DNA of 42,079 bases from an uncultured SAR86 cluster bacterium (GTDB taxonomy: Bacteria; Pseudomonadota; Gammaproteobacteria; Magnimaribacterales; D2472), in the NCBI GenBank assembly GCA_902622845.1, contig CACNRI010000003.1:1-42079 (forward strand). Reading direction: 5' to 3'. Every line of letters starts with the position of its first letter. Positions within the stretch are counted from its first letter, which is position 1. Shown piece after piece: positions 24,952 through 42,079 of this stretch. Below the pieces are notes generated by a model. That model did no database searches and had not been told where the DNA came from. It saw nothing but the letters and a program-made list of their open reading frames with translations. The translations under genes were made by a program, and so were the position numbers.

Positions 24952-27828
24952 TTAGAAGTTAATGCCAAAAGAAACTCCATATGTTCTTGGAGCTCCAACC
25001 ATAGCATTTAACACACTTCCTTCTACCTCAGAACCTCTATCAATACTGATGAGATGTCTATCGTTAGCTAGGTTCTTAGCATACATACCTACGTACCAAT
25101 CACCATTATTTGGGCGATAAGTTGTAATTGCGTCAAAGTAGGTTTGCTCAGGAATACTAGCTCTTTCAGAATTGAAGAGGTCTTGATATTGCTGTCCTTT
25201 TCTTGCAAAGGAAACTCTCATATCAAGAGCACCATTGTCAGTCATCATTGTATGATTCAATGCAATGTTGTAATCAAGTTCACTTGTAGAAGGCATTCTG
25301 TTTCCAGTTAAATCCTGTCTTACAACTTGAGCAAATCCAGGATTACCAATAATGGCTGGATTAACCACAAATACACCCTGACATTTAGCAACTAGCCCTT
25401 CAGCAAATAGTCCCCAGTTACAGAATGGTGTTTGAACACCAGCTCCAGCAAGGCCTGCGTATAATGCACCAGCAGTCGGCGCACCAACTAATAGAGCAAG
25501 ATCAGCTTCACTTGTGGCTAGGAAAGATGGATTACCACTTGATAGGTTAAATGGATTAGCTGGGTCATATAGACTTTCATTACCAATTTCCGAATCAAGC
25601 GCAAATACATTGATATCAAGTGAAGTATTTTCACCTAATAAATACTTAGATTGAACTTCAAGTCCAGTATGTGTGTAGTCAATTGTATTAGTTATAGCAC
25701 TAGTTCCATAGATCATTGAGTTATGTGCGTCATCAGAAGTATGCTCAAACAAAGTGGCATTTAATAAAACTCTACCACCGGCAAGAGTGCTTCTTAATCC
25801 AATTTCTATATTAGTAGAATCAGTAGCATTGTAGGGAAGCACATCTCCACTTTCATTTGGAGAGTTACCTCCAGGCTTATTACCTGTAGAAACTAATCCA
25901 TAAACCATCACGTCATCGTTGATAGCTTTTTGAATAGAGATTTTTCCAGTTACAGCATCATTTTCAGCAGTACCACCTGCGAATCCGCAGTCTAATGATT
26001 TTACAAATGCACCACCAGCAGCTCTTGCACAAGCAGCGGATAATGCACCACCAGCAGTAGCATCACCTAATGTATTTAAGAGTTGGAAATAGTTAGAGTT
26101 TTCATCATATCTTAATCCAACTGTTAACTTAGTTGTATCATCTAAATCATAGTAAACTTCACCATACATAGATGAACTTTCTTGATCTCCATGTTCTGAA
26201 TTAATTAAACCTCTTAGCTCTAGAGGTAAAATTGATTGCATGTAACCAGGACCAAAAGGTGATGGTTGTCCTGTTGCAGGATTTATACCACCAGCATTAA
26301 GGGCTGAAATTGTACCGACAATTTGAGCAACCATTTGATCTAAAGATATTGCACCTACTGCAACACTAGGATATAAGCTTGAAACTAAATTACCTAAAGT
26401 AGCCCAGAATGTAACACCACCATATCCATCTAACTGCCCACCAAATATTAAGTCGCTATATGGATGCTGTCTAAAGTCACCATTCATAACATATCCTTCT
26501 GTCATAACTTGATAATCATTAGAATATTTTGAAGTATACATATAAGCACCTAAAGTATAGTTAAGAGGACCATCGTTATCTGAAATCCAGTTAACTTCAA
26601 ATTGCTGTCTGTCCTCATCTGCAGTTGAGCACTCAATATTACTTGGCGCACCTGTAGATTGGACACCTACACAGTCATATTCAAGATCAGCTGTAAATGG
26701 AATATTTAAAGTAGTGTTGAAAGCTGTCTGCGGAGAAACAGATTTATCATTATCATCAACGTGATTGTAATCTCTCATTCCATAAGTATATTTAACTTTC
26801 AAATCACCATTTTCTCTTGAATTGATCCATTCAACAGTGGTATGTGTTAGGTTTTGACTTCTTCTAGGATCGATATCTAAATAGATTTCGTTAAGATCAT
26901 CTGAAGCTAATGCACCAGCATATGTATCTGTCATTTTGCTTGGTTGCATAAATGTTAACGTTGCAAAACCAGCTGCGAGTGTTCCAGCAGGGTGAGCACT
27001 TCGGTTATAGTCTCCTCTAACCGTTGGATCACAACCAAGAAATTCAACTCTTGAGCAATATCTACTTGCCCAATTCAATCTTGAATCCTCAAAATCATGT
27101 TCTTCATGAGTGAACTGGATGGTGTTGGAAGCATCCATATCATAATCTAAAGATATTCTGAAGGAAGTAGCATCTCTATCATCAATATCTGTACCAAGAT
27201 TAAGATTCTTGATTGTACCGTCTTGTGAATATGAACCATAGGCGATCCTTGCTGCAACATTATCTGTTATAGGCATATTTACTGCAGTTGAAATTCTAGT
27301 TTGACCAAGAGTACCGTAGTCCATCTTTGCATAACCTGTAGTATCACCAGTAGGTCTAGCAGTAATAAGATTAATAAGTCCACCAGTTACATTTCTTCCA
27401 TACAATGTACCTTGTGGTCCAGAAAGAATTTCAATCCTTTCAGCGTCTAGAAATCCAATATCACTGAAAGCAGATGGGCTAAGTGTATGGCCATTAATAG
27501 CAGTTTGCACTGAGCTCACACTCGAAGCACCAATTGCTTCTGTTGCACTACCTCTAATACCGATAAAGTAACCAGCACCAATCGTAGGAGCAAATGTCAG
27601 ACCTGGTGTCAATTCACCAAGATCATACATTTCAGTAACCTGTTGAGCTTCCAAATCTTCACTTGTTAAAGCTTGAGCTGAAAGAGCAACATCCTGAAGT
27701 GATTCCTCTCTTCTTGTAGCTGTAACAACAACTTCCTCAACCTCAACTTCTTGAGCAGAAACGTTATTAAAGCTTGTAAATATAGCAGTCGCTAGAAAAG
27801 CGAATGCAATTCTCTTAAAATTATCCAT
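24952..27828 (-). CDS. TonB-dependent receptor
   Basis: A 958-residue outer-membrane receptor. The signal peptide ends near VSAQ (residue 25). The TonB-box-like EEVVVTATRR is at about 31-40, and the plug with GPQGTLYGRNVTGG lies at about 136-149. A long barrel ends in SFGINF. Two large inserted stretches are rich in Gly, Ala and Pro with paired cysteines (for example CSRVEFLGC), which may form extracellular loops. A GGGGGA element six bases before the ATG serves as the ribosome binding site. It is monocistronic up to a strong terminator. Substrate cannot be assigned. Confidence 0.92.
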   Translation of the reverse strand: MDNFKRIAFAFLATAIFTSFNNVSAQEVEVEEVVVTATRREESLQDVALSAQALTSEDLEAQQVTEMYDLGELTPGLTFAPTIGAGYFIGIRGSATEAIGASSVSSVQTAINGHTLSPSAFSDIGFLDAERIEILSGPQGTLYGRNVTGGLINLITARPTGDTTGYAKMDYGTLGQTRISTAVNMPITDNVAARIAYGSYSQDGTIKNLNLGTDIDDRDATSFRISLDYDMDASNTIQFTHEEHDFEDSRLNWASRYCSRVEFLGCDPTVRGDYNRSAHPAGTLAAGFATLTFMQPSKMTDTYAGALASDDLNEIYLDIDPRRSQNLTHTTVEWINSRENGDLKVKYTYGMRDYNHVDDNDKSVSPQTAFNTTLNIPFTADLEYDCVGVQSTGAPSNIECSTADEDRQQFEVNWISDNDGPLNYTLGAYMYTSKYSNDYQVMTEGYVMNGDFRQHPYSDLIFGGQLDGYGGVTFWATLGNLVSSLYPSVAVGAISLDQMVAQIVGTISALNAGGINPATGQPSPFGPGYMQSILPLELRGLINSEHGDQESSSMYGEVYYDLDDTTKLTVGLRYDENSNYFQLLNTLGDATAGGALSAACARAAGGAFVKSLDCGFAGGTAENDAVTGKISIQKAINDDVMVYGLVSTGNKPGGNSPNESGDVLPYNATDSTNIEIGLRSTLAGGRVLLNATLFEHTSDDAHNSMIYGTSAITNTIDYTHTGLEVQSKYLLGENTSLDINVFALDSEIGNESLYDPANPFNLSSGNPSFLATSEADLALLVGAPTAGALYAGLAGAGVQTPFCNWGLFAEGLVAKCQGVFVVNPAIIGNPGFAQVVRQDLTGNRMPSTSELDYNIALNHTMMTDNGALDMRVSFARKGQQYQDLFNSERASIPEQTYFDAITTYRPNNGDWYVGMYAKNLANDRHLISIDRGSEVEGSVLNAMVGAPRTYGVSFGINF

Positions 27829-31095: not shown

Positions 31096-32295
31096 TTAAT
31101 TTTGTGTACTTACATGTTTAGCAATGGATCTAAACATGGCTACATGCATATCTTTAGACATTTGTAGCTCTGATGTATATTTGTAATTCGATGATGTTTT
31201 AGCTATTAACACTTCTGTTAACGGGTCAATATAGATGTACTGATTATAAACACCAGAAGCAGTAAAATCTGTATCAGGGAATCCAGGAACCCACCATTGA
31301 TATCCATAACCCCAAGGATTTGAGGATGTATCTCTTTCTCCAGGAACAAGATGATCGCCATCAGTTGTATGAGAATCGATTATCCATTGTTCAGAGAGTA
31401 TTTGTTTGTCTTCCCATCTTCCTTTTTGAAGATATAAAAGACCAAATTTTGCATAATCTCTCAAAGTTGCATTGAGACCTCCAAGAGCCAGTTCATCACC
31501 AACATCATCTAGAATAAAATATGCGGAGTCTTCCATGCCAAGAGGATTCCAGATTTTTTCATATAGATATTCAGATATGGATTTTTTTGTAACCTCTTGT
31601 AAAAGAAAACCTAAAACTTGGGTATTAATGCTTACATAATGCATAAAGGATCCAGGAGTTTTTTCCCTTGTTAAGGTTTTTGAGAAGTCTCGCATTGAAG
31701 TGCCTGTTGCTATAGCTCTTCCAAAGCGATTTATATCTGAATTAGGATCTGCATAGTCTTCATTAAAAAGAACTCCTGTGGACATTTGAAGAATATCCTT
31801 AATAGATACTCCCTCATAGCCAGTATTCTCAAAATCAGCAAGATATTTTGTAATTGGGTCATTTAACGAATCTATCAATCCTTCTTCATATGCAATACCA
31901 ACAAGCGCCGAGACAAATGATTTTGCAACTGACCATGAAATATGTTTTTTGTTTTCATTATTTCCAAGCCAATATTTTTCATAAACTATCTTATCTTTAT
32001 GAATAACAATCATTCCATCCGACCAAAAGTAATCTAAATATTCTTCAAGATTTTTTTCTTCACCATCAAACAAAAAAGTTTCTGGTAAAGTTTGAATATT
32101 TTTCTCAAAAGGTTTTGGATTTTCTGAGGCATTAATATTTCTTGAGGGAAATATTTTGTCCATATTTACAAAGTTATAAACAATTTTTTCTTTGTCATAT
32201 AAAGTTTTTACTTTATGGACTCTTAAGGCTTTTGGAAAAATAAAAATAGAGACAATTACTACAAGAAAAAGGATTGCGTAGATAAGAATTTTCAT
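31096..32295 (-). CDS. Membrane-anchored serine hydrolase, beta-lactamase/NylB-like fold
   Basis: A 399-residue protein. Residues 2-20 form a single N-terminal membrane anchor, with the domain probably in the periplasm. The SxxK motif is S122-VAK125 and the YxxxN element is HYVSIN (Y220, N224). LGGLNATLRDYAKFGLLYL is typical of class C-like esterases and 6-aminohexanoate-dimer hydrolases. Likely activity is on esters or amides, not beta-lactams. It is the first gene of a two-gene unit with the flavoprotein and diverges from the aminotransferase gene 70 bases away. Confidence 0.83.
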   Translation of the reverse strand: MKILIYAILFLVVIVSIFIFPKALRVHKVKTLYDKEKIVYNFVNMDKIFPSRNINASENPKPFEKNIQTLPETFLFDGEEKNLEEYLDYFWSDGMIVIHKDKIVYEKYWLGNNENKKHISWSVAKSFVSALVGIAYEEGLIDSLNDPITKYLADFENTGYEGVSIKDILQMSTGVLFNEDYADPNSDINRFGRAIATGTSMRDFSKTLTREKTPGSFMHYVSINTQVLGFLLQEVTKKSISEYLYEKIWNPLGMEDSAYFILDDVGDELALGGLNATLRDYAKFGLLYLQKGRWEDKQILSEQWIIDSHTTDGDHLVPGERDTSSNPWGYGYQWWVPGFPDTDFTASGVYNQYIYIDPLTEVLIAKTSSNYKYTSELQMSKDMHVAMFRSIAKHVSTQN

Positions 32296-32364: not shown

Positions 32365-33759
32365 TTGTCTAGACCAAACAGCTTGACAGAAAAACTATCA
32401 AAGAAAGATAAAGATTTTCTCTTTCATCCAAACACTAATCTTATTGCGCATCAAGATTCAGGACCTTTCATTTTAGAGAAGGGCGAAGGTATTTATGTTT
32501 ATGATACTGACGGTAATAAATATATAGAAGGAATGGCAGGATTATGGTGTAACGCCCTTGGACATGGTAATCAGGAATTAGCTGATGCGGCAATGGAGCA
32601 ATTTAAGAAGTTTCCCTATGGAAACTTATTTGCCTCAAAAAGTCATGAGCCTGCGATTGAGCTTGCTGAGAAATTAGTTGATCTATCACCATTTGATAAG
32701 GCAAAAGTTTTTTTTGGGAGTTCTGGCTCAGATGCCAACGATACCCAGATAAAATTATTTTGGTATATCAATAATGCTCTTGGAAAAACAAAAAGGAAGA
32801 AATTCTTATCTAGAGTTCAGGCATATCATGGAGTTACCCTAGCAACATCCTCTTTAACCGGACTTCCAACTATCCATGGTAATTTTGACTTACCACAAAA
32901 TAATTTTTCACACGCTATGTCCCCAAATTATTTCATTAATAAACATGATGGTGAATCTGAAGAGTCTTTTGTTGAAAGGCTTGGTGAAGATTTAGAGAAT
33001 CACATTATTAAACAAGATCCTGAAACCATTGCAGCAATGTTTGCTGAGCCTTTAATGGGAGCAGGCGGAGTTATTATCCCGCCAAAAAATTACTTCGAAA
33101 CAATACAACCAATTCTTGATAAGTATGAAATACCTTTAATTGATGATGAGGTAATTTGTGGATTTGGACGAACTGGAAATGTATGGGGTGCAGATACCTT
33201 TAACATGAAACCAGTTTCAATAACTGTAGCTAAGGCTCTTTCATCATCATATCTTCCAATCAGTGCAGTCATTATTTCTGATGACTGTTATGACATTGTT
33301 GCAAAGAAAAGTGATGAGCTTGGAATTTTTGGACATGGGTATACATATTCGGGTCATCCCGTTGCATGTGCAGTTGCAGTAAAAACTCTTGAAATTTATG
33401 AAAGAGATAACATGCTTGATCATGTAAATAATGTCAGTCCTACTTTCGTAGAAAGACTAAAAAAATGCGACGAATTTGATATTGTCGGTAATACAAGAGG
33501 AATTGGTCTAATTGGGGCAATGGAATTTGTTTCAGAAAAGAACACAAATAAAGGTTTTGATAAAAAAGGTGTTGCCGGTAAGATTTTTGCTGATCATGCA
33601 AAGGATAATGGGTTAATAGTTAGAGCAATAGGTGATGTTATTGCTTTTTGTCCTCCGTTAATAATAAAAGATTCCCAAATAAATGATATGTTTGATATTG
33701 TTGAGCATTCACTTAAGAAAACTATGGATGATCTTACAGTTCAAGGACTCTTGAAATGA
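32365..33759 (+). CDS. Class III (omega) aminotransferase
   Basis: A 464-residue PLP enzyme beginning with TTG, eight bases after AAGGA. Motifs include GMAGLWCNALGHG (about residues 56-68), FGSSGSDANDTQ for the PLP phosphate, DDEVICGFGRTG and the PLP lysine K290 in TVAKALSS. The pattern matches omega-amino acid or amine:pyruvate aminotransferases (beta-alanine, taurine, putrescine types). Its stop overlaps the alanine dehydrogenase start by four bases. This suggests pyruvate is the acceptor and that the alanine formed is recycled next door. The amine donor is not identifiable. Confidence 0.9.
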   Translation: MSRPNSLTEKLSKKDKDFLFHPNTNLIAHQDSGPFILEKGEGIYVYDTDGNKYIEGMAGLWCNALGHGNQELADAAMEQFKKFPYGNLFASKSHEPAIELAEKLVDLSPFDKAKVFFGSSGSDANDTQIKLFWYINNALGKTKRKKFLSRVQAYHGVTLATSSLTGLPTIHGNFDLPQNNFSHAMSPNYFINKHDGESEESFVERLGEDLENHIIKQDPETIAAMFAEPLMGAGGVIIPPKNYFETIQPILDKYEIPLIDDEVICGFGRTGNVWGADTFNMKPVSITVAKALSSSYLPISAVIISDDCYDIVAKKSDELGIFGHGYTYSGHPVACAVAVKTLEIYERDNMLDHVNNVSPTFVERLKKCDEFDIVGNTRGIGLIGAMEFVSEKNTNKGFDKKGVAGKIFADHAKDNGLIVRAIGDVIAFCPPLIIKDSQINDMFDIVEHSLKKTMDDLTVQGLLK

Positions 33760-34853
33760 TAGTTGGACTACCTAAAGAAATTAAAAATAATGAACATCGC
33801 GTGGGATTAACACCTAGCTCTGTAAAAGAGATTGTTGCAAACGGACATGAGGTTTTTGTTGAAAATAATTGTGGAAAAGAAATTGGTTTTACTAATGAGA
33901 AGTATGAGGAGGCCGGAGCAAAGATTCTCAATTCTCCTTCTGAAATTTATGGAAAGTCAGAGTTGATTGTAAAGGTTAAAGAACCAATGGAGTCAGAAGT
34001 AGGATATCTCAATTCAGATGTTACACTTTTTACATATTTACATTTAGCAGGTAATCCTTCATTAGCAAAAAAACTGATAAACACCGGAGTAAAAGGAATT
34101 GCATATGAGACAGTTACCAGTCCTGAAAATACTTTCCCACTTTTAGCTCCAATGAGTGCCATTGCTGGCCAAATAGCTTTTAACGTTGGAAATTATTTTT
34201 TGTTAAAACAAAATAAAGGTAGAGGAGTTCTCATTGGAACTCTCGATGGAATTAACCTCGGTTTGGTAACAATTATTGGATGTGGCGTTGCAGGAGAAGA
34301 GTCATTACAGAAAGCAATAAATAATGGAGTAGAAGTAAATTTAATTGACCTTTCTGAAGATAGACTTACGCAACTAAAATCAAAATATGGTGAAGACAAT
34401 ATCAACTATATTGTTTCAACTCCTGAATCTATTTCTCAATCTATAAAAGAATCAGATTTAATTTTAGGTTCTGTTTATTCGTTGGGTAAAAATGCACCAA
34501 AAGTTATCTCAGATCAAATGTTAGATTCAGTGAAGCCTGGAACAGTTATGGTAGACATATCTATTGATCAAGGAGGTTGTTTTGAAACATCGTCTCCTAC
34601 AACCCATGATAATCCTACTTTTATTCATAAGGGTATAGTTCATTATTGTGTTACAAATATGCCTGGAGCTGTTCCACTTACAGCAAGTAATGCTCTCAAT
34701 AGAGCCACAATTAGTTATATTCATGAGCTAACAAATAAGGGTATAGATGCTGCTTTAAATGAAAATAAGCATCTAAGAGATGGTTTAAATATAGATAATA
34801 AAGAAGTACCTAATCAATTAGTAAGAGAAGCGCTCGATTCTTTATTGAATTAG
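33756..34853 (+). CDS. ald: Alanine dehydrogenase
   Basis: A 365-residue NAD enzyme that interconverts L-alanine with pyruvate plus ammonium. The N-terminus IVGLPKEIKNNEHRVGLTP carries R15. K75 and H96 (YLHLAGN) fall at the standard catalytic positions, and the NAD motif is GCGVAG (176-181). D267 or D271 in VDISIDQGG is the usual acidic residue. It overlaps the aminotransferase by four bases and converges on the MAPEG gene with a 12-base overlap. In this pairing its likely direction is alanine deamination, releasing ammonium and regenerating pyruvate. Confidence 0.94.
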   Translation: MIVGLPKEIKNNEHRVGLTPSSVKEIVANGHEVFVENNCGKEIGFTNEKYEEAGAKILNSPSEIYGKSELIVKVKEPMESEVGYLNSDVTLFTYLHLAGNPSLAKKLINTGVKGIAYETVTSPENTFPLLAPMSAIAGQIAFNVGNYFLLKQNKGRGVLIGTLDGINLGLVTIIGCGVAGEESLQKAINNGVEVNLIDLSEDRLTQLKSKYGEDNINYIVSTPESISQSIKESDLILGSVYSLGKNAPKVISDQMLDSVKPGTVMVDISIDQGGCFETSSPTTHDNPTFIHKGIVHYCVTNMPGAVPLTASNALNRATISYIHELTNKGIDAALNENKHLRDGLNIDNKEVPNQLVREALDSLLN

Positions 34854-35299: not shown

Positions 35300-35839
35300 A
35301 TGTTTACAAAAATGTCAGAAGGTACCAAGGAAGAGTGGGAGCATATTAGTCAAGAGCATGCTCCGCATATTATGGATATGCCTGCAAGGGTAATTGATAT
35401 GCTAAAGCAACTTGAAAGACTCTCATTGGGTTTTGGCACAAATCAGTTACATCACGCTCTCCAAACTGCAACAATGGCAAAGAGGGCTGGTGCTGACGAT
35501 GAAATGGTTCTCATTAGTCTAATCCACGATATGGGAAAAGTTGTAAATGTTCCTAATCATGGGCAAATCTGTGCTGAAATTATTAAGCCCTACGTAAGTG
35601 ATGATGCTTACAACATAATTCGAACTCATCAAGATTTTCAGGGCGAACACTACTATCATTATCTTGGAAAACCCAGAGATTTAAGAAAAAACTATAAAAA
35701 TGAGTCTTGGTTTGAAAAAGCTAAACAGTTTACCGATGAATGGGATCAAGCTGCATTTGATCCAAACTATGATACCGAACCATTAGAAAGCTTTATTCCT
35801 TTAATTGAAAAGTTCTTTGGTTTCCCAAAAACTATTTAA
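35300..35839 (+). CDS. HD-domain protein with diiron-oxygenase-like ligand set
   Basis: This 179-residue protein has an HD fold with possible metal ligands at H51/H52, H76-D77 (LIHDMGK), H87, H110 (RTHQDF) and D149 (EWDQAAFD). H-HD-H-H-D is the six-ligand order seen in the mixed-valent diiron HD oxygenases PhnZ, TmpB and inositol oxygenase. HD phosphohydrolases can share it too. AGADDEMVLISLIHD closely recalls PhnZ. No SD sequence precedes the ATG. A TTGATA/TCTAAT pair (35264-35269 and 35288-35293) would place transcription onset near the ATG, so the message could be leaderless. Function is unproved; an oxygenase or phosphohydrolase are the options. Confidence 0.75.
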   Translation: MFTKMSEGTKEEWEHISQEHAPHIMDMPARVIDMLKQLERLSLGFGTNQLHHALQTATMAKRAGADDEMVLISLIHDMGKVVNVPNHGQICAEIIKPYVSDDAYNIIRTHQDFQGEHYYHYLGKPRDLRKNYKNESWFEKAKQFTDEWDQAAFDPNYDTEPLESFIPLIEKFFGFPKTI

Positions 35840-36077: not shown

Positions 36078-36106
36078 TTGTCATATTTGAAGGAAAATAC
36101 TATAAT
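36078..36106 (+). promoter_or_regulatory. Near-consensus sigma70 promoter for the TBDR operon
   Basis: TTGTCA (36078-36083) and TATAAT (36101-36106) are separated by exactly 17 bases. The transcript would start about 25 bases before the TBDR ATG and include AAAGAGGA as ribosome binding site. This is the best promoter match in the window and would drive at least four genes. Confidence 0.75.
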
Positions 36107-36138
36107 CATCGCAATTTTTTAAACTTAAAGAGGAATTT

Positions 36139-38634
36139 ATGAAAATTTATCATTTTTTACTTTTACCAATATTTTTACTTAATATAACTTTAGTTGCCCA
36201 AGATAACGAGGATGAAGCAGCTAATGACATAGAAGAAGTCGTTGTTACAGCAACCTCCAGAGAAACAACAATTTTTGAAGTTCCATATAACATATCTGCT
36301 GTTTCTGGTTCAGATATTGATTCAAAGGGTATTCAGGATACAGCTGAACTTTTAAGGAGTTTTGCTGGTATAAGCACTATTGATAGGGGATCTAGAAATG
36401 CTGGTACTATTAATAATATAAGAATTAGAGGTTTGAACGTTGATTCAAATGCTTTACAAGATTATCCAGTAAGCGCTGCTGCTTCTGTATCAACTTATGT
36501 TGATAAGACTCCTGTTTTTGCTAATTTTCTTCTTAAAGATCTAAATAGAGTTGAAGTTTTAAGAGGACCACAATCAACACTCTATGGTTCTGGCTCACTT
36601 GGAGGAACTGTTCGTTATATTACTAATAAACCATCTCTTGATGAATTTACATCAACAGTGAACCTAACAGCAACTCAGGTCAAAGGATCTGAAGATGTTG
36701 GTGATAATGTTGATGTAGTATTAAATATCCCAATACTGAGCAACATTGCTTATAGATTTGTATCTTCAAAGGCTGATTATCCCGGAGTAACTGATTATGT
36801 AAATGTACATGAGGTTTCAGATTTACCTGCTTTTGATCCATACCTTTTAGGTGTAATAGATGGTTCTGTTGGAGTTCCAAGTCTAAAAAATGGATTTGGA
36901 ACAGCACTTGATTTTATGACTTCTCCACCAGTTATTAATGGTGTGAAAGATGCTGACAACGTTGATGTGGAGTTTTTCAGACATAAATTTTTAATTGAAC
37001 TTTCGGATAATGCAGAACTACTAATTACTTCAACTACTCAAGATGATTTTGTTGGAGGAAGAAGAGCTCCATCAACAGGAGTAAGGTATGTATTAAATGA
37101 TTCATGTGTAGATTTATTAGCTACCGATTGTTACTCAACATCTTCATATGGAAGTTATGACAATGGAGCAGTAATGCTTGAACCATCAGAAAGAGAAGTA
37201 TCTCTTACAACAGTTGAACTAAATCTAGATGGATCATCTGCTGATCTTGAAATTTCACTTTCTAACTATGAAAGAAGCTCAGAGAGTATTACAGATAATA
37301 CTGGATTTTTTGCAAATGGCGGCTTTTTAACAAGTGCAGCTGCTGGATATTACAACGATTCATTTGCTGTAGGTGGGATTTTTGCAGTACCACCAAGACC
37401 ATATGTTGCTGCAAATAGGCAATATGATAATGATGGAAAAACTTTGGAAGTAAGACTTGTTTCAGAAAAATCTGATGTAGTTGACTATGTGTTTGGATTT
37501 TTTATGCAGAAAGAATCCTTAGAAAGGAAACAACAGACATATATCAAGGGAACCAATGCATGGAATGGATATTATTGGGGCGTAGATTATGTAGTTGATC
37601 CCCTTGAAAAAGATTTTGACTATCGTGTCTCTGAATCAATTAGGCAAAAAGCTGCATATGGTGAATTAACTTTTCATACATCTGAAATGTTTGATGTAAC
37701 TCTTGGTTTTAGACATTTTTCACTTAACGCTAGCGGAAGCTCAGATATGAGTTTTGCTTTATATGGGCTTGGTCCATCAACCGGTCTTCATGATAATGAT
37801 GAATCCGATACTTTATACAAGTTGAATCTTGCTTATATGCCAAAAGAAAACCAGACCTGGTATGCAACAGTATCAGAAGGATTTAGAAGAGGTGGGGTTA
37901 ATGCAGTTCCTACCGAAGGCTCATTTATTGAAGAGGCTGGATGGGTTCCATTCGCTTCCGACTCTGTTCTAAATCTCGAGTTCGGAGCTAAAGGCATAAC
38001 AAAAAGAGACGTTTTTTATAATATGAGTATTTATAGAATTGATTGGAATGATCCACAACTAAACACAGATACTCCAAACTATAGTTTTTATGCTGTGATA
38101 AATGGTGACGAGGCTCAAACTACTGGTTTAGATATAGAACTCAAAGGTTCTGTTGGCCAAATAGATTGGGACCTTGGTTATGCAAGGAATAAATCGGATC
38201 TAAGAGCTGACCTTGTAACTCCTGCATCAGTTCCATCAGTATATGCACCTAAAGGTGCTGGCCTTCCGGGAACTCCTGAAGATATGGTTAATGTTGGCCT
38301 AGCTTACACATCCTATCTTGATAATGGTTGGGGTATTGTTCATAGAGCAAACATGTACTACCAAAGTGATATGAAAAATCATTTAAGTACAAGTCTGGGA
38401 TATTCACAATTGCTCGATTCATTTACGATTGGTGATATATCTTCAACTCTTTTTTCTGATGATATGTACTTAAGTTTCTTTGTTAAAAATTTAATGAATG
38501 AAAGAGGAGTTACTGGTATGTTCAAAAGTGAATCCTTTGGACCGAATCCAGCTGCAGGATTTTATGGAAGTAATGATAGAGAATTCATAGCACTTCCTAG
38601 GACTGTTGGAATTTCTATAGAAAAATCTTTCTAA
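36139..38634 (+). CDS. TonB-dependent receptor heading a hydrolase-transporter operon
   Basis: An 831-residue outer-membrane receptor with signal peptide (cleavage near VAQ, residue 21). The TonB-box-like EEVVVTATSRE lies at about 33-43, the plug with RGPQSTLYGSGSLGG at about 146-160, and the barrel ends SIEKSF. AGAGGA lies six bases before the ATG. The next gene starts four bases after the stop. The receptor should move a specific substrate into the periplasm, where the following secreted hydrolase could act. Substrate unknown. Confidence 0.92.
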   Translation: MKIYHFLLLPIFLLNITLVAQDNEDEAANDIEEVVVTATSRETTIFEVPYNISAVSGSDIDSKGIQDTAELLRSFAGISTIDRGSRNAGTINNIRIRGLNVDSNALQDYPVSAAASVSTYVDKTPVFANFLLKDLNRVEVLRGPQSTLYGSGSLGGTVRYITNKPSLDEFTSTVNLTATQVKGSEDVGDNVDVVLNIPILSNIAYRFVSSKADYPGVTDYVNVHEVSDLPAFDPYLLGVIDGSVGVPSLKNGFGTALDFMTSPPVINGVKDADNVDVEFFRHKFLIELSDNAELLITSTTQDDFVGGRRAPSTGVRYVLNDSCVDLLATDCYSTSSYGSYDNGAVMLEPSEREVSLTTVELNLDGSSADLEISLSNYERSSESITDNTGFFANGGFLTSAAAGYYNDSFAVGGIFAVPPRPYVAANRQYDNDGKTLEVRLVSEKSDVVDYVFGFFMQKESLERKQQTYIKGTNAWNGYYWGVDYVVDPLEKDFDYRVSESIRQKAAYGELTFHTSEMFDVTLGFRHFSLNASGSSDMSFALYGLGPSTGLHDNDESDTLYKLNLAYMPKENQTWYATVSEGFRRGGVNAVPTEGSFIEEAGWVPFASDSVLNLEFGAKGITKRDVFYNMSIYRIDWNDPQLNTDTPNYSFYAVINGDEAQTTGLDIELKGSVGQIDWDLGYARNKSDLRADLVTPASVPSVYAPKGAGLPGTPEDMVNVGLAYTSYLDNGWGIVHRANMYYQSDMKNHLSTSLGYSQLLDSFTIGDISSTLFSDDMYLSFFVKNLMNERGVTGMFKSESFGPNPAAGFYGSNDREFIALPRTVGISIEKSF

Positions 38635-38637
38635 TAC

Positions 38638-40293
38638 TTGTTGTATAGATTATTTTTCTTACTAATTATTTGCCCAGGTCTGTATGCACAAGATCTGGGC
38701 AAAATTTTATGGGGTGAATCTCCTTTATCTTCTCCATTAAATTTTGATTATATTTCCTCAAAATTTAATGATTTAAATACAAAAAGCTTTTCAGGTAGTT
38801 ATTCAATAAACTCTTTCCCTGAAGGAATAGGTTTTGAAGTTCTTAAGGATGAGCAGGCTTTTAAAAATAGAAAAAATGATGAGCTTTTTAAACAATTTCC
38901 TGAATTTAGTATCGAAATATCTGTAGAAGGAAAAAATGTATTAATTAGAAATAAAAATATTATTCAAACCAATAATAACTATTGGGACTTAAGTTTTTCT
39001 GACGGCTCATCATGGTATGAAGACAAACTTCTTTTTATATCAGCTCCGTTCTCTCTTATTCAAAAAAATGCTAACTGTGTTCATAACGGGGTTTTGATTT
39101 TCTCCATCAATAATAAATATGAGATTTCAAAAAGCATATTCCAAATTTCTAGTGAAACATGTGCCTACTTTCAGTTTAACTACATTGCAATATTCAATTC
39201 TTTTTTTTCAATAGACACTAATATTGATTTTGATGAAAGTAAGAATAATGCTTATGAACATTCGTCATTTGAGGGTATATATAAAAAATATCCTAATATT
39301 GTAAAACAGTCTTTTGCTGATTCAGGATCATTTATGGGTGACGAGGTAACGGCATTTGGATTTTTTGATGGTGAAGAGCATTTCATTGGTCCCTGCAAGA
39401 CGAGGTCAGGAAATTATCCCTTTTGTGAGAATATTCTTCTACCCGCATACTCACTGACGAAGACCATAAGCGGTACTTTAGGTATAGCGGCATATGAAAA
39501 AAAATATGGACCAATAAGTAATCTGCTTGTTAGAGACATTGTTCCATCGTGCTCGGATAAGAAATGGAAGGATATAACTATTGAAAACCTTTCTGACATG
39601 ACGACTGGACACTATAAATCAACTATTTATTATGGTGATGAGGATAGTCTCGCATCTGCAAACTTTATCTTTAATGACTTAAGTCACGAGGAAAAGGTAA
39701 ACTTTTCCTGCAATTATTACCCAAGAAAGAAAAAACCTGGCGCAGAATTTGTTTACCATACATCCGATACCTATCTAATAGGGACAACTTTAAATAATTT
39801 ATTATCTGATAAGGAAGAAGATGATTTTTTTGATGATCTGTTAGTACCTATATTTAATTATCATAATTTTAGTGAAAAAATTAAGTTTACTAGAAGAACC
39901 AATGACCCAAGAGAGCAGCCATATACTGGATGGGGAATGTTTCTTAATAGAGATGATTTAATAAAATTAAATTCACTTCTAAATTCTCCAAAAAAATATG
40001 ACTTTTTCTCAAAAGATTTTTTAGATGAAGGTCTTCAGGAAAGTGAAGATAGAGGATTATTAGCTATTAAACAATCAAATATTTTTTACAATAATGGATT
40101 TTGGGCTGCCAAATTTGATAAAAGTATTTTTGGATGTAAGGAAGACCTAATGATTCCCTTTATGTCAGGATACGGTGGAATAACTGTTGTTTTTTTACCA
40201 AATTCCATGCTCTATTACTACTTTAGCGATAATTTCACTTTCTCGTGGTATTCTGCTGTGTATGCAGCCCACAACATTAAGCCATTATGTTAA
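38638..40293 (+). CDS. Secreted serine hydrolase, beta-lactamase-like fold
   Basis: A 551-residue protein translated from TTG, with a signal peptide ending near LYAQ (residue 18). Residues 19-220 form an N-terminal domain I cannot name. The catalytic domain has S272-LTK275 (SxxK) and Y373 in VYHTSD, giving the Ser-Lys-Tyr set of class C-like esterases and amide hydrolases. GWGMFLNRDDLIKL matches the same fold. It lies four bases after the TBDR and overlaps the MFS gene by seven, so it is a periplasmic partner of the receptor. A beta-lactamase role is unlikely. Confidence 0.8.
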   Translation: MLYRLFFLLIICPGLYAQDLGKILWGESPLSSPLNFDYISSKFNDLNTKSFSGSYSINSFPEGIGFEVLKDEQAFKNRKNDELFKQFPEFSIEISVEGKNVLIRNKNIIQTNNNYWDLSFSDGSSWYEDKLLFISAPFSLIQKNANCVHNGVLIFSINNKYEISKSIFQISSETCAYFQFNYIAIFNSFFSIDTNIDFDESKNNAYEHSSFEGIYKKYPNIVKQSFADSGSFMGDEVTAFGFFDGEEHFIGPCKTRSGNYPFCENILLPAYSLTKTISGTLGIAAYEKKYGPISNLLVRDIVPSCSDKKWKDITIENLSDMTTGHYKSTIYYGDEDSLASANFIFNDLSHEEKVNFSCNYYPRKKKPGAEFVYHTSDTYLIGTTLNNLLSDKEEDDFFDDLLVPIFNYHNFSEKIKFTRRTNDPREQPYTGWGMFLNRDDLIKLNSLLNSPKKYDFFSKDFLDEGLQESEDRGLLAIKQSNIFYNNGFWAAKFDKSIFGCKEDLMIPFMSGYGGITVVFLPNSMLYYYFSDNFTFSWYSAVYAAHNIKPLC

Positions 40294-41444
40294 AAAATAT
40301 TCATCAAGATAGTATCCTTAACGCTTTTTTTCTTTCAATCTTTGCAACTGCTGGTCTTTTTTATGTAAATTTAGGAGGCTCATTTTTATCTGCATTTGTT
40401 GACGGTCTAAATATTCAAAGAGATGCGGCTGGTTTCATAGTGAGCGCGAATAAGTACGGGGCGGCTTTTGGTGGCTTATTGGCTGCGATATTCATCAAAA
40501 AACTTGTTTGGAGAAAGTCAGCTTACATACTTTTACTGTTATTAATTTCTATAGACATAATTTCGTCACAAATCTCAAATGCTAATTTATTGATCTTCAT
40601 TAGATTTCTTCATGGTTCAATTGGTGGATTCTTGGTAGGAATTGGCCTGTCTGTAATAGCGAGGACATCATTTCCAGATAAAGTATTCGGCATGCTGATG
40701 GTTGTTCAATATTCTTTTGGTAGTGTTGGGATATTTACAGTACCAAGACTCGTTGATGCATTTGGTTATAGCTCAGTTTTTTTCGTGTTAATAACATTCA
40801 GTATAATGACTCTTTTGATACTTCCAATTATTCCTGATCCAGCAGAAAAAAAAGTTGCTGTAAATAAATCAGGCACATTATCATTTCGTGCAAAAGTTTT
40901 ATTGACTATATGTTTAATGAGTTTGTTTTTATTTCAAGCCTCAAACATGGGAGTTGCAGATTTTGCATTTGAATTAGGCAAGGATATTGATCTAACTAAT
41001 AAAGAAATTAGTAATCTTTTAACTATAGCGAATGTTATCTCAATTTCAGGAGGTGTATTAGCATATTTAATAGCTACTCGGTTTGGCAGGACTTTACCTC
41101 TATTGATCGGCTTTTCTATTGCTTCATTATTTACATACTTATTAAATTTCTCTGAAAATATAACAATTTATTTTATAGCTAATTCCATTACAGGTATTAC
41201 ATGGGGTTTTGTTATCCCATATCTTCTGGGTTTAGCAGCAACTTTTGATAAGTATGGGCAAATGGCAGCATTGGCTGGATTTGTCTCCAAAATAGGTCTT
41301 GCAAGTGGTCCACTAATAGCGTCATTTCTAATAATAGACTTTGGATTTAGTGTAATTATTAATCTCGCCGCTTTTGGTCTTTTGCTTGGATGTATTCTTG
41401 CAGTTTATGCAAGCAAACAATCATCAATTGCAGATAATGAATAA
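40287..41444 (+). CDS. Major facilitator superfamily transporter
   Basis: A 385-residue inner-membrane carrier with about twelve hydrophobic helices. The MFS pattern includes GLNIQRDAAGFIVSANKYGAAFGGLLAA around helix 2 and FIRFLHGSIGGFLVGIGLSVIART around helices 4-5. It overlaps the hydrolase gene upstream by seven bases and the nitrilase-like gene downstream by eight. It would take up (or export) the product of the periplasmic hydrolase. The substrate class is not identifiable. Confidence 0.87.
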   Translation: MLKNIHQDSILNAFFLSIFATAGLFYVNLGGSFLSAFVDGLNIQRDAAGFIVSANKYGAAFGGLLAAIFIKKLVWRKSAYILLLLLISIDIISSQISNANLLIFIRFLHGSIGGFLVGIGLSVIARTSFPDKVFGMLMVVQYSFGSVGIFTVPRLVDAFGYSSVFFVLITFSIMTLLILPIIPDPAEKKVAVNKSGTLSFRAKVLLTICLMSLFLFQASNMGVADFAFELGKDIDLTNKEISNLLTIANVISISGGVLAYLIATRFGRTLPLLIGFSIASLFTYLLNFSENITIYFIANSITGITWGFVIPYLLGLAATFDKYGQMAALAGFVSKIGLASGPLIASFLIIDFGFSVIINLAAFGLLLGCILAVYASKQSSIADNE

Positions 41445-42079
41445 AATAAAACTAGCAGCTCTTCAACTTCAATTAAATAAAACTGATAATCTTGATTTTC
41501 TCCTTTCAAAACTGAATGATTTAGTTAAAAGCAAGGATGACCTCGATATTATTATTCTCAGTGAGCTTGCCGTAGGAGGTGCTGGGGCAAAGAATTGTAA
41601 TCATCCACTAAGTAAGTATGAAAAAATATTTTCTGAGTTTGCAAAAAACAATTCTATTTTTTTGATACCTGGAACTTTTTACGAAGAGGATGTAGACAAA
41701 GTGCTTAATGTTGCGCCAGTTTTTAACAGAGAAGGGAATCTTATAGCTAAGGCTAAAAAGATTTATCCATGGCTTCCATATGAGCTTGATGTAGATTCGA
41801 GTGATGAGATTTGCGTCTTTAATTTTGAAGATAAAGGAAATATTGGTATTCATATTTGCTATGATCTTTGGTTTCCAGAAACGGCTAGAGCTCTTGCAAT
41901 AGCTGGTGCTGAATTGATAATTAATCCGACCATGACACCTACTAAAGATAGAGATATTGAGACAGTCATGGTTCAAGCAACTGCTGCACAACAACAATGC
42001 TATTACGTAGATATCAATGCAAGTGGTGAACAGGGTAACGGCAAATCTCTTATTTGTGATTATGAGGGCTCAGTGATAG
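41437..42079 (+). CDS. Carbon-nitrogen hydrolase (nitrilase superfamily), cut by the window end
   Basis: The first 214 codons are present with no stop before the window edge. Residue 43 (SELAVGG) is the catalytic Glu, the Lys is K108 (or K107) in KAKKIYPW, and C141 in HICYDLWFPE is the nucleophile. This completes the Glu-Lys-Cys triad. The superfamily hydrolyses nitriles, amides and carbamoyl compounds in the cytoplasm. It overlaps the MFS gene by eight bases, as the fourth gene of the TBDR operon. Full length would usually be 260-300 residues, so about 50-90 are missing. Confidence 0.88.
   Translation, partial: MNKIKLAALQLQLNKTDNLDFLLSKLNDLVKSKDDLDIIILSELAVGGAGAKNCNHPLSKYEKIFSEFAKNNSIFLIPGTFYEEDVDKVLNVAPVFNREGNLIAKAKKIYPWLPYELDVDSSDEICVFNFEDKGNIGIHICYDLWFPETARALAIAGAELIINPTMTPTKDRDIETVMVQATAAQQQCYYVDINASGEQGNGKSLICDYEGSVI

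Follow-up and report, generated by a model that had tools for sequence, protein, structure and literature searches.

A four-gene block inherited as one unit in SAR86 and its possible role in scavenging an amide-containing compound

We analysed a stretch of DNA of 42,079 nucleotides (the window) from an uncultured SAR86 cluster bacterium, corresponding to bases 1-42079 of contig 3 in a genome of 1.19 Mb. Near its right end, a sigma-70-like promoter is followed by four closely spaced genes, and two catabolic genes lie upstream. The features are given below.

32365..33759, + strand, class-III omega-aminotransferase (NF004767, 623 bits, cut-off 517)
33756..34853, + strand, alanine dehydrogenase (TIGR00518, 414 bits, cut-off 392)
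36078..36106, + strand, sigma-70-like promoter, TTGTCA-17-TATAAT (11/12 matches)
36139..38634, + strand, TonB-dependent receptor (TBDR), 831 aa (PF07715 and PF00593 above cut-off)
38638..40293, + strand, exported SxxK serine hydrolase, 551 aa, TTG start (N-terminal beta domain and beta-lactamase/NylB-like catalytic domain)
40287..41444, + strand, MFS inner-membrane carrier, 385 aa (PF07690, 66.4 bits, cut-off 33.4)
41437 (ATG)..42273, past the window end at 42079, + strand, nitrilase-superfamily C-N hydrolase, 278 aa (PF00795)
36089..42079, with the right end at 42274 beyond the window, + strand, block present or absent as one unit (alignment to the empty site L092)

The near-consensus promoter and the four genes of the original prediction were all present in the expected order. 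According to the open reading frame calls, the hydrolase and MFS genes overlap by 7 bases and the MFS and nitrilase genes by 8, as predicted, and the gap between receptor and hydrolase is 3 bases rather than 4. Extension past 42079 showed that the next gene (42275-42724), whose small product has a TonB C-terminal match, is convergent, so that the nitrilase, which stops at 42273, is the last gene of the operon. The promoter was the top-scoring site in the region, where promoter-like sites as a class were not enriched (18 found vs 27.8 expected). Its hexamers and spacing were identical in both close relatives checked (L043 and L044), and the best site within 130 bases upstream scored 7 to 10 of 12 at eight more distant loci. 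For the hydrolase gene, the earliest start codon available was TTG in 10/10 loci (window 38638, L043, L045, L046, L048-L051, L067, and L075), each time close to the receptor stop, and is possibly a conserved low-level, coupled start. Base composition was uninformative as to a foreign origin (GC 0.336 in the block vs 0.347 upstream and 0.328 downstream).

We next consider the individual products. The receptor contains both TonB-dependent receptor domains (Plug 62.1 bits, barrel 80.6 bits). It matched 23 NCBIfam models, none at cut-off, and the top partial match was the siderophore-receptor model TIGR01783, at 98 bits against a cut-off of 223.5. Siderophore uptake was set aside on this curated score. 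The receptors of two Porticoccaceae/Cellvibrionales loci (L050 and L075) were 54% similar to that of the window and those of SAR86 family f4 55-57%, and this near-equal similarity hints at a possible transfer between lineages. Another receptor of 958 aa is encoded at 24952-27828 on the - strand of the window, with a Plug domain and no barrel match at E <= 0.001. The carrier matched MFS_1 with 66.4 bits.

The part of the nitrilase inside the window matched CN_hydrolase (PF00795) with 83.6 bits. Searches used the 277 aa after the start Met as query, and residues are numbered accordingly. In the Glu-Lys-Cys triad, E42 and K107 were invariant in 17 homologues, and C140 was conserved in all except one unread residue. 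The protein scored below the curated NCBIfam cut-offs for deaminated-glutathione amidase (66 vs 355), formamidase (65.1 vs 406), AguB (64.6 vs 410), and aliphatic amidase (56.6 vs 427), and no specific curated model was reached. A PDB profile search gave five matches of 79-88 bits and did not discriminate between them. The best single-sequence PDB match was NIT2, an omega-amidase.

The hydrolase has a signal-like N terminus as seen by eye. S272, K275, and Y373, together with eight cysteines, were invariant in 20/20 homologues of alignment A3, which consists of chosen rows and not all homologues; the 16-row alignment A1 omits the cut hydrolases of G150, G185, G072 and G016. At the usual third motif (KTG or HTG), all 20 read M/L-x-G, an equivalence judged from the sequence pattern only. 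The K-T-G of class C beta-lactamases was thus not found in the hydrolase, and a drug-resistance beta-lactamase was rejected, with no KTG motif as aligned and with catabolic neighbour genes. The score against PF00144 was 15.2 (cut-off 27), and homologues from Planctobacterium and Henriciella reached 21.2 (below) and 28.8 (above), respectively. The family is barely covered by Pfam. A second serine hydrolase of PF00144 (121 bits) lies at 31096-32295 on the - strand, divergent from the aminotransferase, which such a gene also adjoins in the same-genus loci L092, L094, and L039.

The predicted model of the hydrolase (pLDDT 79.9) gave 112 PDB matches at E <= 0.001 with the fold of SxxK enzymes. Foldseek ranked Lsa45 first, followed by AmpC beta-lactamases and PIB-1; the first NylB entry appeared at rank 16. 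When VIA-align was run on Foldseek's top 1000, PIB-1 came first for the predicted model (Z 25.2, 3.9 A over 326 residues), and NylB structures were next (Z 23.7-24.2, 3.1-3.2 A, 293-303 residues, identity 10-12%). Lsa45 scored 21.7 and esterases and D-peptidases near 20, so that PIB-1 and NylB stood 2-5 Z units over the other entries listed. A sequence profile search found PIB-1 at E 2.7e-4, and NylB was not listed up to E 10. The catalytic core is predicted to have a NylB-like serine amidase/esterase fold, the shape of the 6-aminohexanoate-dimer (nylon oligomer) hydrolase. The N-terminal domain modelled alone reached pLDDT 82.8 and had no Foldseek match at E <= 0.001. Its VIA-align scores against small outer-membrane barrels were at most Z 8.1, which may reflect only a common arrangement. 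Modelling, proposed earlier as a check for this protein, gave an SxxK-type fold and yielded no confident match for the N-terminal domain. The alignment of that domain used 30 of 32 rows and left out L062 and L074, two homologues with long N-terminal extensions; the extension of L062 contains a HYDIN-type Ig-like domain, and L074 aligns to the same stretch.

The distribution of the four genes was surveyed in 199 genomes of the order, with E cut-offs of 1e-3 for the hydrolase, 1e-30 for the carrier, 1e-150 for the receptor, and 1e-30 for the nitrilase. Matches were found in 20, 11, 11, and 31 genomes, respectively. Any of the receptor, hydrolase, and carrier occurred in 13 genomes of the SAR86 families f1 and f4; G016 was not counted as an operon genome (28% match, E 1.8e-4, other protein). 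The order TBDR-hydrolase-MFS-nitrilase was present on one contig in 9 of these 13. In the other four (G072, G140, G150, and G185), the contig ends within the operon and no gene is missing otherwise; G150 also has an interruption in the hydrolase reading frame close to where its contig stops. Across the class, the hydrolase was detected at E <= 1e-50 in 2/369 genomes sampled, one of them the window's own.

The genome of L092, which belongs to the same genus, has an empty site. The alignment breaks off at 36088 and returns at 42275, with the flanks retained at 93% and 79% protein identity. By eye, the empty-site sequence has the -35 box and lacks the -10, and no repeat or transposase was noticed at the junction. 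Across 20 loci, the protein distances of each gene correlated with those of the other three at r 0.86-0.91 (0/2000 permutations each), to which shared host descent contributes, with two locus pairs being close relatives. Because the genes are conserved together, the empty site lacks exactly these genes, and their divergence is correlated, chance is excluded. These results support the four genes as one unit, gained or lost whole, in line with the original prediction: no gene was absent from the 13 f1/f4 genomes except at contig ends, and a sister genome lacks exactly the block.

Parts of the block without the others in relatives had been named beforehand as evidence against a common system. Such parts, which count in part against it, were found in family f2 and as five lone hydrolases outside SAR86, and none were found in f1 or f4. 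In f2, the nitrilase was present in 17 genomes, with the hydrolase immediately ahead in 6; all 6 hydrolase loci had hydrolase and nitrilase together without this receptor and carrier, and a different TBDR lay upstream. Pyruvate kinase was upstream of the nitrilase, with or without the hydrolase, in 9/14 f2 loci examined (L033-L037, L084, and L086-L088). The nitrilase was the most widespread of the four genes and occurred without the hydrolase in 14/31 genomes. In family f3, it was paired with the omega-aminotransferase in all three nitrilase genomes, and a fourth f3 genome had the aminotransferase only.

The aminotransferase of the window ends 2.4 kb before the receptor. Its orthologue lies directly 3' of the nitrilase in eight SAR86 loci, all from genera other than that of the window, and in two Porticoccaceae/Cellvibrionales loci. 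At E <= 1e-120, the aminotransferase was present in 13/13 operon genomes vs 8/186 others (Fisher p 2e-15, uncorrected for relatedness). Alanine dehydrogenase was found in 9/10 SAR86 operon loci examined, a count outside which L077 falls. It was absent from L051 and from both Porticoccaceae/Cellvibrionales loci. The empty-site genome has both genes without the block, so the aminotransferase and alanine dehydrogenase are not strictly tied to it. Between alanine dehydrogenase and the operon, the window encodes an HD-domain protein (35300-35839) that is conserved in the genus and weakly resembles phosphonate-oxygenase models (35 bits vs cut-off 215).

Acting together, an aminotransferase that uses pyruvate and an alanine dehydrogenase would remove the amino group of an omega-amino compound. 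The original prediction placed the final step of the pathway in the cytoplasm, and this is supported, as amino-acid catabolic genes are linked. Among 16 SAR86 genomes tested, none had an SSADH over cut-off, and none of three aldehyde dehydrogenases beside SAR86 operons passed. A more general aldehyde dehydrogenase was present in 16/16 and lies divergent next to the receptor in three genomes. A GABA catabolic cluster, with GABA transaminase and SSADH over their cut-offs, was found with rearranged versions of the operon in relatives among the Alpha- and Gammaproteobacteria and not in SAR86, and the window's aminotransferase is of the omega class (NF004767), not GabT.

Outside SAR86, a scan of public genomes gave 35 hydrolase loci, 19 of them outside the order; the remaining 16 belong to it, repeat surveyed SAR86 genomes, and are not independent. 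With L097 added, 20 non-SAR86 loci were compared, and within the DNA fetched, 12 had the nitrilase and 12 an MFS orthologue. Seven loci shared the order MocR-type regulator, nitrilase, receptor, TPR-sulfotransferase, hydrolase, and carrier (two Colwellia, Aliiglaciecola L071, Psychrosphaera L073, Henriciella L060, the alphaproteobacterial MAG L076, and L097). The regulator precedes the nitrilase in all seven, and the only one tested (L072) passed the PdxR model and not GabR. In 11 non-SAR86 loci (L056, L059, L060, L064, L069-L073, L076, and L097), the receptor and hydrolase genes are separated by one for a TPR-sulfotransferase, its domains checked in L056 and L060 and assigned by similarity elsewhere.

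Aldehyde dehydrogenase and aminotransferase genes adjoin the cluster in L060, L071, L073, and L076, partly cut by locus ends, and also in Kordiimonas L056 and Henriciella L064, which have other arrangements. Receptor, hydrolase, carrier, and nitrilase were found beside SSADH in Henriciella L060, Kordiimonas L056, Aliiglaciecola L071, and the MAG L076. All five non-SAR86 aldehyde dehydrogenases tested (L056, L060, L068, L071, and L076) passed the SSADH model TIGR01780, and no SSADH tested reached the stricter equivalog NF008415. GABA transaminase (TIGR00700) was passed by 3/4 GabT-like aminotransferases; among the six non-SAR86 aminotransferases tested, those of L060, L071, and L073 passed it, those of L050 and L076 were NF004767, and that of L068 was neither. 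At the Saprospiraceae locus L068, the hydrolase is accompanied by an aminotransferase, SSADH, an amino-acid permease, and a C45 hydrolase, whereas nitrilase, MFS, and this receptor are absent. The hydrolase stood without nitrilase, carrier, and orthologous receptor in Planctobacterium L062, Microbulbifer L063, L066, Bowmanella L065, and the Pseudomonadales MAG L074; in L065, the opposite strand carries a weak match to the receptor. Since the 16 SAR86 genomes tested had no SSADH over cut-off and the window's aminotransferase belongs to the omega class, a GABA end-point finds its support in these relatives, and for SAR86 it would be an extrapolation. The original prediction is supported in part: the four genes form one unit, and the end of the pathway takes a tentative form, with omega-aminotransferase and alanine dehydrogenase linked and relatives pointing to a GABA-type product.

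Taken together, we consider it moderately probable that the block is a scavenging pathway for an amide-containing compound, ending in a GABA-like omega-amino acid and inherited or lost whole. The receptor would bring the compound over the outer membrane, and the exported NylB-like SxxK serine amidase/esterase would cut it in the periplasm. The MFS carrier would then move a fragment into the cytoplasm, where the nitrilase may remove a second amide-type nitrogen and leave a C4-C5 omega-amino acid, e.g. GABA or 5-aminovalerate. The linked omega-aminotransferase would hand the amino group to pyruvate, a use suggested by its family; alanine dehydrogenase would regenerate pyruvate and free ammonium; and an aldehyde dehydrogenase would finish the carbon chain. 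The compartments of the four products are those suggested by protein family and by the signal sequence seen by eye, and the direction of flux, the amide bond, and the product class are likewise putative.

Other readings of the same genes were weighed against this pathway. As an esterase, the hydrolase could act on a lipid or polyester and set free a head group with an amino function, which the nitrilase would then attack. Esterases of the same fold (Est-Y29, EstB, EstG, and EH7, among others) make up many of the structural matches listed, and esterase activity is ascribed to Lsa45, the top Foldseek match. We regard ester chemistry as unlikely, since VIA-align puts NylB and PIB-1 over the esterases and an amide substrate would better fit the nitrilase partner. 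The receptor could instead import a siderophore or another metal chelate, e.g. a hydroxamate built from diamines and succinate, which the hydrolases would dismantle for iron, carbon, and nitrogen. The receptor's top partial match (TIGR01783, 98 bits) and the nitrilase's match to NIT2, an omega-amidase, are consistent with such salvage. A SAR86 paper (PMC11582366) also suggests catechol siderophores as a possible carbon and iron source. However, the siderophore-receptor score is far under the cut-off of 223.5, the block consists of four genes only, without a reductase or ABC importer, and iron release needs no SSADH/GabT linkage as seen in relatives, which makes chelate salvage quite unlikely.

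Scavenging of peptides or peptidoglycan fragments would make the SxxK enzyme a penicillin-binding-protein-type peptidase, with the other products handling freed amino acids and amides. The predicted fold is common to D-peptidases, D-amino acid amidase, and Lsa45, and alanine dehydrogenase is linked. However, alanine dehydrogenase can also be explained as a means of recycling the alanine that a pyruvate-dependent aminotransferase produces, the use of ordinary peptides gives no obvious task to a nitrilase or an omega-aminotransferase, and the third motif, its equivalence read from sequence, lacks the usual Lys/His. We find this explanation decidedly improbable. The hydrolase-nitrilase and nitrilase-aminotransferase pairs found without the rest, and the lone hydrolases, would suit separate activities joined by chance or transfer without a common substrate. 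Such an assembly is highly improbable given the exact inheritance of the block, its joint distribution, and the same partners rearranged in distant lineages.

For the scavenging pathway of an amide-containing compound, the setting is of interest. To our knowledge, the import substrates of most SAR86 outer-membrane receptors are not known. Here, a receptor is tied to a Pfam-poor hydrolase family and to a likely catabolic end, which narrows the search for its substrate to a defined class of compounds. Since named non-SAR86 strains carry the cluster, such as Kordiimonas gwangyangensis DSM 19435 (L056), Aliiglaciecola sp. CAU 1673 (L071), and Psychrosphaera sp. B3R10 (L073), the pathway is testable without growing SAR86, which PMC11582366 places among the most abundant surface-ocean bacteria. 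A search limited to one open-licence collection found no description of this gene set. The parts are of known kinds, and the hydrolase family and the gene combination appear undescribed. A bolder version, which we think doubtful, is that the block is a natural counterpart of nylon-oligomer degradation, in which the hydrolase and its partners feed on seawater oligo-amides of omega-amino acids or on omega-aminoacyl conjugates. If true, NylB-type enzymes would have a role in nature, and dissolved organic nitrogen would include a class not recognised so far.

Several known systems share parts of this layout. The SusCD polysaccharide utilisation loci of Bacteroidetes also combine an outer-membrane receptor, an external enzyme, a carrier, and a cytoplasmic enzyme. 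A glycan locus of this type was rejected, as neither a SusD nor a glycoside hydrolase is among the four genes, just as the original prediction had stated. The microcystin degradation cluster mlr resembles the block in combining an SxxK hydrolase with a carrier, whereas the block has a nitrilase in place of the other mlr enzymes. Similarly, the DavA-DavT-DavD pathway for 5-aminovalerate has a nitrilase-family amidase and a class-III aminotransferase, with a semialdehyde dehydrogenase matched in the relatives of the block, but the block adds a receptor and an exported hydrolase. In nylon-oligomer catabolism, NylD is an aminotransferase and NylE an aldehyde dehydrogenase. The block resembles this system in its SxxK hydrolase with a NylB-like predicted fold (Z about 24), in the linked class-III aminotransferase, and in the aldehyde dehydrogenase of relatives. 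In contrast to that system, its hydrolase is exported, has an extra N-terminal domain and eight cysteines, and shares only 10-12% identity, and the block joins receptor, carrier, and nitrilase in one operon.
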